NCBI RefSeq assembly: GCF_008728835.1
Contig: NZ_CP042582.1
Coordinates: 744,001 to 808,000, forward strand
Length of the DNA stretch: 64,000 nucleotides
Direction: 5' to 3'
From: Hypericibacter adhaerens
GTDB lineage: Bacteria > Pseudomonadota > Alphaproteobacteria > Dongiales > Dongiaceae
In this document: in pieces, positions 44,922-49,991 of the stretch
How positions within the stretch are numbered: the stretch's first letter is position 1
Layout of the letters: each line of letters opens with the position of its first letter
Program-made: the position numbers and the translations under genes
The notes under the pieces: generated by a model
Told to the model about the DNA's origin: nothing
Databases searched by the model: none
What the model saw: only the letters and a program-made list of their open reading frames with translations

Positions 44922-46352
44922 ATGTCGAACCGTTCCGGCCATGAGGCTCCGCGCCGCTGCCTGCGCCGCGCCCTGATCGGCCTGTTGCTGCTGGCCGGTC
45001 TCCTGATCGGGAGCGCGCGCCCGGGTGAGGCCAAGGTCTTCAGCCCCGAGACCTTCACCCTCGAGAACGGCCTCCAGGTCGTGGTGATCACCAGCCGGCG
45101 CGCCCCGGTCGTGACCCAGATGGTGTTCTACAAGGTCGGCGGCACCGACCTCACCCCCGGCAAGAGCGGGCTCGCCCATTTCCTCGAGCATCTGATGTTC
45201 CGCGGCACCAAGGAACACGGGCCCGGCGAGTTCTCGGCCATCGTGCAGCGGCTCGGCGGCAACGAGAACGCCTTCACCACCGCCGACTTCACCGCCTATC
45301 ACCAGTCGATCGCGATCGAGGCGCTGCCGCAGGTGATGGAGCTCGAGGCCGACCGCATGGCCAATCTGGTGCTCGACAAGAAGACCGTCGATACCGAGCG
45401 CGACGTGATCATCGAGGAGCGCCGCCAGCGCATCGACAACGATCCGGGCGCGCAGCTCTCCGAGATGCTGAACGCGGTGCTCTATCTCAACCATCCCTAT
45501 CGCGTGCCCGTCATCGGCTGGGAGCAGGAGATGCACACGCTCGACGCCGACGATGTGCAGGCCTTCTACGACCATTGGTACGCGCCCAACAACGCGATCC
45601 TGGTGCTGTCGGGCGACATCTCGGCGGCGGAAGCCAAGCCGCTGGTGGAGAAATATTACGGGCCCGTGGCGCGCCGCGACGTGCCGCAGCGGGTGCGCCC
45701 GACCGAGCCGCAGCAGTTCGCGCCGCGCCGCGTGACGCTCGAGAGTGCCGCCGTGCAGCAGCCCAACTGGATCCGCATCTACCAGGCGCCCTGCTATCCG
45801 GGGCCGGACAAGGAGAAGGCCTATGCGCTGGCGGTCCTCGCCCAGATCCTGGGCGGCGACAGCACCAGCCGGCTCTATCGCCATCTCACGGTCGAGCAGA
45901 AGCTCGCCGCCGGCGTCTGGGCCCGCTATGACGGCAACCGGGTCGATCTCGGCAGCTTCAGCTTCGCGGCGACGCCCAATCCCGGCGGCAAGCTCGATGC
46001 GATCGAAGCCGCCATCGACAAGGAGATCGCCGATCTCCTGGCCAAGGGGGTGACCGACGAGGAGGTCCAGCGGGCCAAGGCCTCGATGATCGACGATGCG
46101 GTCAAGGCGCGCGACAGCCTGATGGGCCCCGCCAACACGCTGGGCTCGGCGCTCGCCATCGGCCTCACCGTCGACGATGTCGAGAGCTGGCCCGACCGCA
46201 TCGGCGCCGTCACCCGCGAGCAGGTGGACGCGGCCGCCAAGGCGGTATTCGACATCAACCAGTCCGCGACCGGCCTGTTGCTGCCGGCCGCGGGTGCCTC
46301 GGTGCCCGCCGCAGGCCCCGCGGTCCCGCTCGACACGGGAGTGACGCCATGA
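44922..46352 (+). CDS. M16-family zinc peptidase, catalytic subunit
   Basis: The 476-residue protein has a hydrophobic signal sequence (about 16-37, ending GEA) and the inverted zinc motif H86-F-L-E-H90, with the distal Glu in the LDKKTVDTERDVIIEE segment. It is the catalytic half of a two-subunit M16B peptidase likely located in the periplasm. Its stop overlaps the next gene's ATG (ATGA), consistent with coupled synthesis of the partner. Confidence 0.93.
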   Translation: MSNRSGHEAPRRCLRRALIGLLLLAGLLIGSARPGEAKVFSPETFTLENGLQVVVITSRRAPVVTQMVFYKVGGTDLTPGKSGLAHFLEHLMFRGTKEHGPGEFSAIVQRLGGNENAFTTADFTAYHQSIAIEALPQVMELEADRMANLVLDKKTVDTERDVIIEERRQRIDNDPGAQLSEMLNAVLYLNHPYRVPVIGWEQEMHTLDADDVQAFYDHWYAPNNAILVLSGDISAAEAKPLVEKYYGPVARRDVPQRVRPTEPQQFAPRRVTLESAAVQQPNWIRIYQAPCYPGPDKEKAYALAVLAQILGGDSTSRLYRHLTVEQKLAAGVWARYDGNRVDLGSFSFAATPNPGGKLDAIEAAIDKEIADLLAKGVTDEEVQRAKASMIDDAVKARDSLMGPANTLGSALAIGLTVDDVESWPDRIGAVTREQVDAAAKAVFDINQSATGLLLPAAGASVPAAGPAVPLDTGVTP

Positions 46353-47881
46353 GGGGCGCGATGACGGTGGGCGGCAGAGCCGAACGCGCGAATGAAATCG
46401 CGCCCCCTCCCCTTGCGGGAGGGGGTAGGGGGAGGGGGGACGCACGCGCGTTCTGGAAAGGAATCGCGCAAACCCTCCTTCGCCGATATCACGCGATTCC
46501 TTCTCCGAATCGATTGCGGCCGGCAACCCCTACCCCCTCCCTCAAGGGGAGGGGGCTCGGATATGTCGGGGCTGCCCTGCTGCTGACAGCGCTGTGCCTG
46601 TTGTTCGCCCCCGCGCCGGCCTCGGCCGCGATGGAGATCAAGCGCGTCGTCAGCCCCGGCGGGATCGAGGCCTGGCTGGTCGAGGATCACTCGATGCCGC
46701 TCATCGCCATCAACCTGGCCTTCCGCGGCGGCAGCGCCGCCGACCCCGCCGACAAGGGCGGGCTCGCGGAGCTGGTCTCGGGCCTGCTCGACGAGGGCGC
46801 CGGCCCCTACGATTCGCAGGCCTTCCAGCGCAAGATCTCGGATCTCTCGATCGACCTGCGGTTCGATGCCGGCATGGACGAGTTCCGCGGCTCGATGCGG
46901 ACCTTGACCGCCCACCGCGACGAGGCCTTCGACCTGCTGCATCTGTCGCTGACCCAGCCGCATTTCGACGCGGAGCCGGTCGAGCGCGTCAAGGGCCAGA
47001 TCGCCACCATCATCGCCGGCGATGCCGAGGATCCCGGCGAGATCGCCGAGCGGACCTGGTGGCAGACCGTGTTCCCCGATCATGGCTATGGCCGCGATCC
47101 GATGGGCAGCCCCGAGAGCCTTGCCCGCATCGACCAGGCCGATCTCAAGGGCTTCGTCGCCGCCAACTTCGCGAAGGACCGGCTCCTGGTGGGTGTGGTC
47201 GGCGATATCGCGCCGGGCGAGCTGGGGCCGCTTCTCGACAAGACCTTCGCCGGCCTGCCGGCCAAGGGCACGGCGGTGCCGGTGCCGGATGCGGCGATGC
47301 AGGGCGCCGGCAAGACGATCGTGATCGAGAAGCCGGTGCCGCAGAGCGTGATCCTGCTGGGCGGTCCCGGCGTCAAGCGCAGCGATCCCGACTTCTATGC
47401 GGCCTCGATCCTGGTGGAGGTGCTGGGCGGCGGGTTCGGCTCGCGCCTCACCAAGCAGGTGCGCGAGGACCGCGGGCTCGCCTACTCGATCGGCGCCAGC
47501 CTCGCGACCTACGACCACGCGGCCCTGCTCGTGGCCCAGACCGCGACCAAGAACGAGCGCGCCAAGGAATCGATCGAGGTGATCCGCCAGGCCTGGGGGG
47601 AGCTCGGCAAGAACGGACCGACCCAGGCCGAGCTCGACGATGCGCGCGACTATATCCTGGGTTCCTATGCGCTCCACTTCACCAACAGCCTCGCCATCGC
47701 CGGCAACCTGGTCTCGCTCCAGCTCGACGATCTGGGGATCGACTATCCGCAGCGCCGCACCGAGCTGTTCCAGAAGGTGACGCTGGAGGATGTAAAGCGG
47801 GTCGCCAAGCGCCTGCTCGATCCGGCGGTCCTGACCTGGGTCGTGGTCGGAAAGCCGGCGGGGATGTCCGAAACGCCTTGA
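46349..47881 (+). CDS. M16-family peptidase-like partner subunit, with a repeat element inside its N-terminus
   Basis: The 510-residue protein is the second M16B subunit; the HxxEH zinc motif is absent (GGLAELVSGLLDEG in its place), while the C-terminal GGGFGSRLTKQVREDRGLAYS is kept, as in non-catalytic partners. The ATG overlaps the stop of the upstream gene. Residues about 18-70 are encoded by a paired palindromic repeat (46402-46558) that leaves the frame open. Only after it comes the hydrophobic signal core (GYVGAALLLTALCLLFAPAPASA). Without the element the protein would be about 457 residues, the usual length. Confidence 0.88.
   Translation: MRGAMTVGGRAERANEIAPPPLAGGGRGRGDARAFWKGIAQTLLRRYHAIPSPNRLRPATPTPSLKGRGLGYVGAALLLTALCLLFAPAPASAAMEIKRVVSPGGIEAWLVEDHSMPLIAINLAFRGGSAADPADKGGLAELVSGLLDEGAGPYDSQAFQRKISDLSIDLRFDAGMDEFRGSMRTLTAHRDEAFDLLHLSLTQPHFDAEPVERVKGQIATIIAGDAEDPGEIAERTWWQTVFPDHGYGRDPMGSPESLARIDQADLKGFVAANFAKDRLLVGVVGDIAPGELGPLLDKTFAGLPAKGTAVPVPDAAMQGAGKTIVIEKPVPQSVILLGGPGVKRSDPDFYAASILVEVLGGGFGSRLTKQVREDRGLAYSIGASLATYDHAALLVAQTATKNERAKESIEVIRQAWGELGKNGPTQAELDDARDYILGSYALHFTNSLAIAGNLVSLQLDDLGIDYPQRRTELFQKVTLEDVKRVAKRLLDPAVLTWVVVGKPAGMSETP
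46402..46558. repeat. Paired palindromic repeat element inside a coding sequence
   Basis: Left arm 46402-46436 (CCCCCTCCCCTTGCGGGAGG, GGGTAGGGG) and right arm 46526-46558 are inverted complements with few differences, flanking an 89-nt spacer that itself contains AAGGAATCGCG / CGCGATTCCTT. The 157-nt unit has no stop codon in the frame of the M16 partner gene. Translation yields a Pro/Gly/Arg-rich stretch. Confidence 0.85.
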
Positions 47882-49879: not shown

Positions 49880-49889
49880 CGCCGGGCTT

Positions 49890-49986
49890 AATCCCCTCCC
49901 CCGGAACGGGGGAGGGCGAGGGAGGGGGCTGCTCGGTGCGTGCAGCCCTCTCCCTGGCCCTCTCCCGCAAGCGGGAGAGGGGACAT
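49890..49986. repeat. Paired palindromic repeat element between convergent genes
   Basis: A left unit (CCCCTCCCCCGGAACGGGGG then AGGGCGAGGGAGGGGG) and a right unit (CCCTCTCCCTGGCCC, TCTCCCGCAAGCGGGAGAGG) lie in opposite orientation in the 112-nt gap between the transglutaminase and alpha-E genes. Hairpins on both strands could terminate both convergent transcripts. Confidence 0.8.
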
Positions 49987-49991
49987 GCCCT

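Follow-up and report, generated by a model that had tools for sequence, protein, structure and literature searches.

A palindromic element in the reading frame of an M16 peptidase partner of Hypericibacter adhaerens, with a probably inverted interior at the same site in a sister species

In the genome of Hypericibacter adhaerens (5.87 Mb on a single contig, C1; G000), the second gene of an M16 peptidase pair opens with a start codon coupled to the gene before it, runs through a palindromic repeat, and only then reaches the hydrophobic core of a predicted signal peptide, which raises the question of whether the repeat is translated as part of the protein, and of how it came to lie there. The window that we analyzed is the whole 64-kb stretch C1:744001–808000, and positions are those of the window unless the contig is named. 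The features on which the argument turns are as follows.

44922..46352, + strand: M16 peptidase, first gene of the tandem pair (PF00675 E 2.8e-22, PF05193 E 5.8e-36; HFLEH in the translation)
46337..46341, + strand: GGGAG, Shine-Dalgarno-like, 7 nt 5' of the ATG, read from the sequence
46349..47881, + strand: M16 partner, second gene, 510 aa (PF05193 E 6.1e-32; no HxxEH by eye)
46401..46556, + strand: palindromic element, 156 nt or 52 codons, in frame, encoding about 52 residues, PPPLAGGGRGRG...TPSLKGRG
46401..46437, + strand: left arm, 37 nt, a palindrome in itself, CCCCCTCCCC-TTGC-GGGAGGGGG
46438..46525, + strand: interior, 88 nt, partly self-complementary
46526..46556, - strand: right arm, 31 nt, an inverted copy 6 nt shorter than the left arm, with one mismatch in the 28-mer
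46565..46609, + strand: hydrophobic core of the predicted signal peptide, VGAALLLTALCLLFA, residues 73–87, from Kyte-Doolittle windows

The paired palindromic repeat that a preliminary description had placed at 46402–46558 (157 nt) is real, with best-fitting limits of 46401–46556 that lie at most 2 nt away. Its arms stand in inverted order, CGCCCCCTCCCCTTGCGGGAGGGGGTAGGGGGAGGGG at the left and the shortened inverted copy at the right, each being palindromic in itself; inverted arms were detected at 46399–46431 and 46527–46559 (94% complementary), and an inner inverted pair of the interior at 46451–46468 and 46492–46509 (83%). The predicted RNA fold of the element has an energy of -112.2 kcal/mol (z -9.0, with 0 of 200 shuffles equal), and the arm 28-mer occurs twice within the 64-kb window, on opposite strands and with 0 and 1 mismatch, where shuffling leads one to expect 0. 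If read through, the insert would add some 52 residues rich in Pro, Gly, and Arg.

The start of the partner gene had been described as fixed by the upstream stop, in agreement with which its ATG overlaps the TGA of the 44922–46352 gene by 4 nt, and the first in-frame start shows the same 4-nt overlap in 20 of 42 homologous pairs (a 1-nt overlap in 5 of the 42). The element sets in 52 nt after the A of this ATG, and the ORF stays open across it. The preliminary description had also held that the hydrophobic core comes only after the repeat, leaving an n-region of roughly 70 residues; we indeed find the core to begin at about residue 73, the best 12-residue hydrophobicity window starting at residues 1–60 reaching 0.38, versus 2.73 for the core. 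Against PF00675, the partner scores 19.8 bits, under the cut-off of 22.3.

The 42 homologous M16 pairs comprise 30 loci (the best 30, in a search with matches in 60 of 61 genomes, that of H. adhaerens included) and 12 more from another search, and we measured N-terminal length in each from the in-frame start that comes first around the end of the preceding gene to a VVSPGG-like anchor. This distance is 18–42 residues in 36 pairs, 68 in genome G005, 99 in H. adhaerens, and 112 in G001, the single other genome marked as belonging to the same genus and referred to here as the sister species; the anchor pattern was unmatched in the remaining three (L027, L032, and L061), whose N-termini look short. 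An equally long N-terminus without a repeat, which had been named as the case that would speak against an insertion, is found in none of the 42 pairs, and the next-longest N-terminus, the 68 residues of G005 by the first-start rule, contains a repeat of a different type there. In the next genus (G002), the homologous start reads MRAMTTRLGGAWTRRLLAPAVLLLLLGG, and the element is absent. The forecast that the segment would be missing elsewhere thus holds for the other homologues, which are much shorter, and fails for the sister species, where the element occupies the same site. The repeat in G005 (L026, 2780–3010, minus strand) is an unrelated, GC-rich palindrome, CCCTCTCCC...GGGAGAGGG, at the corresponding junction between the two M16 genes, and it is open in frame between an ATG preceded by AAGGA and a second ATG after it.

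The arm belongs to a family that is abundant in this genus alone among the genomes searched. With up to 3 mismatches, the 28-mer has 115 copies (60 + 55) in H. adhaerens, and with up to 2 mismatches 175 copies (88 + 87) in the sister species, the reversed control giving 0 in both; BLAST matches in family members are few (3 in G002 and 2 in G003), and in a sample of 240 genomes of the class, which included H. adhaerens itself and into which the sister species was not drawn, matches with up to 2 mismatches occur in 8, with 110 in H. adhaerens and 14 in the next best. One hundred listed arms out of the 115 fall into 62 clusters, treated as 63 places, of which 48 are pairs and 15 single arms; among the pairs, 18 have the arm order of the M16-gene element (that element included) and 30 the opposite order. 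The pairs of H. adhaerens are mostly intergenic, as judged by a coding-potential test. By eye, 15 of the 18 same-order elements are copies of 201–213 nt that resemble one another in their interiors, which occur in both orientations, and this sub-family, at 15 places of C1 (for example 352869, 1389012, 4953000, and 5575500), looks recently spread. We considered the M16 interior as a member of this 205-nt family and rejected the assignment, the arms alone being common to both. The distribution along C1 is uneven, in that the 1.6 Mb between 1.70 and 3.32 Mb hold 1 of the 62 listed-arm clusters (at 2255170).

By its architecture, the element is REPIN/MITE-like, with neither label fully earned. REP doublets, or REPINs, are described as paired palindromes, inverted relative to each other and separated by a spacer, for which a single hairpin is predicted and which are mostly extragenic and present in many copies (PMC3116915), all of which resembles the present case. 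Unlike for REPINs, no Y1_Tnp (RAYT, PF01797) gene was found in H. adhaerens (0 matches, in a search that was positive in 5 of 14 control genomes), and the arm is GC-heavy; a RAYT transposase may nevertheless have been lost. In the description in PMC3733652, a REP ends in GTAG, whereas here GTAG lies inside the arm, and many copies have GTTG. The terminal inverted repeats, a length within 50–500 bp, and the lack of an internal transposase gene correspond to MITEs as characterized in PMC10969869. Rfam returned 6 matches (E 0.016 to 0.57, 15.4–25.8 bits), all below the gathering scores of 38–160, and the arm sequence strings had no occurrence in the open-licence PMC literature. Beside the arm cluster near 3.701–3.705 Mb, no transposase was recognized among the ORFs, which by eye resemble guaB, rrmJ, and ppx.

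In the sister species, the element stands in frame at the same site of the M16 partner, and the right flanks run on alike from the element onward, starting at the same base (TCGGATATGTCGGGGCTG in H. adhaerens and TTCGGAATGTCGTGGCTG in the sister species). The distance from ATG to element is 52 nt in H. adhaerens vs 76 nt in the sister species, and the element itself measures 156 vs 162 nt, such that both differences, 24 and 6 nt, are multiples of three. The left arm is identical in the two species, and the interiors differ at 31 of 86 positions. Compared without gaps, the interior of H. adhaerens matches the reverse complement of its counterpart at 56 of 86 positions and the forward strand at 34 of 86; a second cut of the interior, with shifts of up to 8, gives 55 matches reversed (reached in 0 of 20000 shuffles) vs 32 forward (1621 of 20000), and gapped scores are 49.5 reversed (0 of 1000 shuffles) vs 34.5 forward (5 of 1000). 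Some similarity in the forward direction is left, which reflects the partial self-complementarity of the interior. When the interior (46440–46526) was used as a query against H. adhaerens, the sister species, and four family members, it found itself and, as the best match in the sister species, the orthologous site on the minus strand; the E-value of 0.037 is at the level of chance matches in G003 and G007 (0.032 and 0.036), and it is therefore the place of this match that counts, not its score. Neither species has a stop in the mirrored frame, and across such a flip codon positions 1 and 3 swap while position 2 is kept. From these comparisons, we consider it very likely that the interior was inverted in place between its arms in one lineage.

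We note that the opposite orientations could also be explained if the two species had gained the element independently, by insertion at one spot in opposite directions. The junction may be permissive, in that an unrelated palindromic repeat occupies it in G005, and spacer lengths differ between the species at five shared intergenic sites. Against this, the interior-only search gave no convincing further copy in either genome; the best of 47 other element interiors in H. adhaerens scores 34.0, compared to 65.5 reversed and 40.0 forward for the orthologue in the sister species; and the right flanks continue alike from the same base. We hence hold independent gain to be very unlikely, and in-place inversion is the simplest reading, a double insertion being probably the less likely course of events. 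Inversion as a general trait of shared sites was considered and rejected: at the five intergenic sites, the lowest reverse-complement count is 29 per 1000 shuffles, with forward counts of 3, 1, 19, 402, and 22, two of the sites showing some forward similarity, while the M16 site in the same light-shuffle test gives 0 for the reverse complement and 121 for the forward strand. These light shuffles swap segments and mix incompletely, and for the M16 site the 20000-shuffle and gapped tests weigh more. The five sites (C1 542060, 588626, 1025743, 1049266, and 1511271) keep their arms in both species, with spacers of 22, 22, 51, 23, and 23 nt in H. adhaerens vs 67, 69, 81, 73, and 66 nt in the sister species. 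Some syntenic arm sites are without arms in the sister species, with flanks too diverged for a target-site duplication to be read.

Translation of the insert by read-through is likely, as judged from the conserved coupled start, the in-frame length differences between the species, and the starts available in H. adhaerens. Ahead of the core, translation could begin in frame at ATG1, ATG5, GTG7, or TTG56, of which TTG56 lacks a Shine-Dalgarno sequence by eye; the stretch between element and core has no in-frame ATG, GTG, or TTG, and the next candidates are TTG85, within the core, and ATG95, beyond it. Read-through is favored further because neither species has a stop in the insert and because the mature part is under clear constraint, its 416 codons showing 63, 46, and 114 mismatches between the species at codon positions 1, 2, and 3, with an excess at the third. 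The 31 mismatches of the interior are spread over the three positions as 13, 8, and 10, and no protein-level selection on the insert was detected, its protein similarity being that of randomly placed changes (P 0.27); among the six frames, conservation is not highest in the coding one (score 52 vs 72, 54, 54, 30, and 29), and codons in the element are not used as in coding sequence (-0.48 and -0.47 per codon). Such absence of constraint would fit a passenger bound to its frame and free in its residues, and an untranslated insert would look the same. Openness alone is weak evidence, because 35 of 102 frames through the other 17 same-order elements are open, and three other ORFs of H. adhaerens are open through arms. 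No other in-frame copy was found in H. adhaerens, where 0 of the 63 places have coding sequence on both sides in one open frame, and one has the same frame on both sides with 3 stops in between. This 240-nt both-sides test misses copies near gene ends, that of the M16 partner included, and a scan of ORFs across arms was added, in which four ORFs cross one of 110 arms in H. adhaerens, namely the M16 partner and the three others, which apparently start downstream. The same scan found none in 800 kb of the sister species (39 arms); further in-frame cases there are possible, since the scan also missed the sister species' own M16 gene, in which the 80 codons that follow the element score 0.20 and so fall short of the 0.3 limit.

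One competitor to read-through is that the element is extragenic in effect and separates the two genes, such that translation would start after it, from a new ribosome-binding site provided by GGGGAGGGGG of the right arm. The three ORFs that are open through arms in genes apparently starting downstream would fit this, as would the lack of protein-level constraint, and many N-terminal REPs may be extragenic according to PMC3733652. The sister species, moreover, offers further in-frame starts at GTG15, ATG44, and GTG84; of these, GTG84 comes shortly behind the element, 12 nt after GGGGG, and H. adhaerens has GGG in its place. In H. adhaerens itself, however, in-frame initiation would have to wait for TTG85 or ATG95, and the ATG best spaced from the arm belongs to another frame, which ends after 7 codons; furthermore, both length differences between the species are multiples of three. 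On balance, a start beyond the element appears quite unlikely. A role at the RNA level, in which the hairpin, as an RNase III cleavage site or an obstacle to ribosomes between the coupled genes, would determine how much of each M16 subunit is made relative to the other and be kept for that reason, draws on the very stable fold in both species (-112 to -129 kcal/mol, with z of -9.0 in H. adhaerens and -11.7 in the sister species) and on a left arm that is unchanged while the interior has diverged. Since the same arm is also found at unrelated places throughout both genomes, its conservation is not peculiar to the M16 gene, and we regard such a role as unlikely; it may also coexist with read-through, with which it is compatible.

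Read-through following an insertion, with a later inversion, is the account that we prefer, at a probability of about three in four. A non-autonomous REPIN/MITE-like element would have entered the n-region of the M16 partner before the sister species split, and ribosomes from the coupled ATG would read through it, as it spans a whole number of codons and contains no stop in frame, adding about 52 Pro/Gly/Arg-rich residues ahead of the core. The n-region of a Sec signal peptide tolerates changes in length and composition if positive charge precedes the core. The right arm encodes KGRG before the core in both species and could supply that charge beside it, and the whole extension would be discarded with the signal peptide, for which reason the insert should be tolerated. 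Recombination or template switching between the inverted arms may later have flipped the interior in one lineage, leaving the gene intact because the mirrored frame is open as well. It is conceivable, and in our view highly improbable, that the element is an invertible coding cassette, its interior turning over again and again within present-day populations by way of the near-identical arms; as either orientation gives an open frame in either species, each flip would exchange one N-terminal extension for another and spare the enzyme, a recombinase-free form of signal-peptide variation.

We take E. lithoralis and S. alaskensis to be alphaproteobacteria. REPs lie inside ORFs of several free-living species, these two among them (PMC3733652), and proteins of R. 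conorii with an N-terminal RPE-1 are expressed (PMC3733652); RPEs and in-frame MITE fusions are summarized in PMC10969869. The present element is like RPEs in being a palindrome of about 150 bp in frame inside a host gene, as RPEs are in unrelated host genes, N-termini included (PMC10969869, PMC3733652), the likeness to a palindrome in frame in a host protein gene extending to the frame only. RPEs are described as having a CGTC end, many host genes, and a conserved peptide, whereas here a single gene among 63 places is affected, its peptide is without detected selection, and CGTC was not seen by eye in the arm on either strand; the variants TGTC and CCTC are reported for CGTC families (PMC3733652). 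The enterobacterial RU-2 repeat in YPO1552 belongs to another lineage, and its description in PMC2759123, through which we compare it, reports no inversion. The coding palindromes of nematomorph mitochondria are similar in that long inverted repeats lie inside translated genes, but there both arms encode conserved protein (PMC6649704), whereas the present insert is an addition and seems to be under no constraint. The literature thus already contains palindromic inserts in frame, including in a predicted signal peptide, and the kind is known, such that the flipped orthologue is what is new here; we found no description of a flipped in-frame orthologue in the open-licence PMC literature, mostly at the level of titles and abstracts. 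The locus provides a case outside Rickettsia of a palindromic, presumably mobile repeat in a reading frame that has persisted through a species split, and the two species can be compared directly, at the same site and in the same frame but in opposite orientation. If translated, it would mean that a signal-peptide n-region can absorb a 52-residue mobile insert together with its inversion. For annotators, a conserved start, in-frame length differences, and the lack of a later start offer a means of telling in-frame from extragenic elements.

Two smaller observations concern nearby sequence. The out-of-frame ATG after the right arm (46563–46586) lies 7 nt after GGGGAGGGGG and opens a frame of 7 codons; the sister species has the same ATG with a frame of 10 codons and the same TGCTGA ending, and off-frame initiation there is possible. 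On the minus strand at about 49888–49990, the end of an ORF, SPLPLAGEGQGEG...PSLALPRSGGGD, resembles a GC-rich palindromic repeat of a different type.
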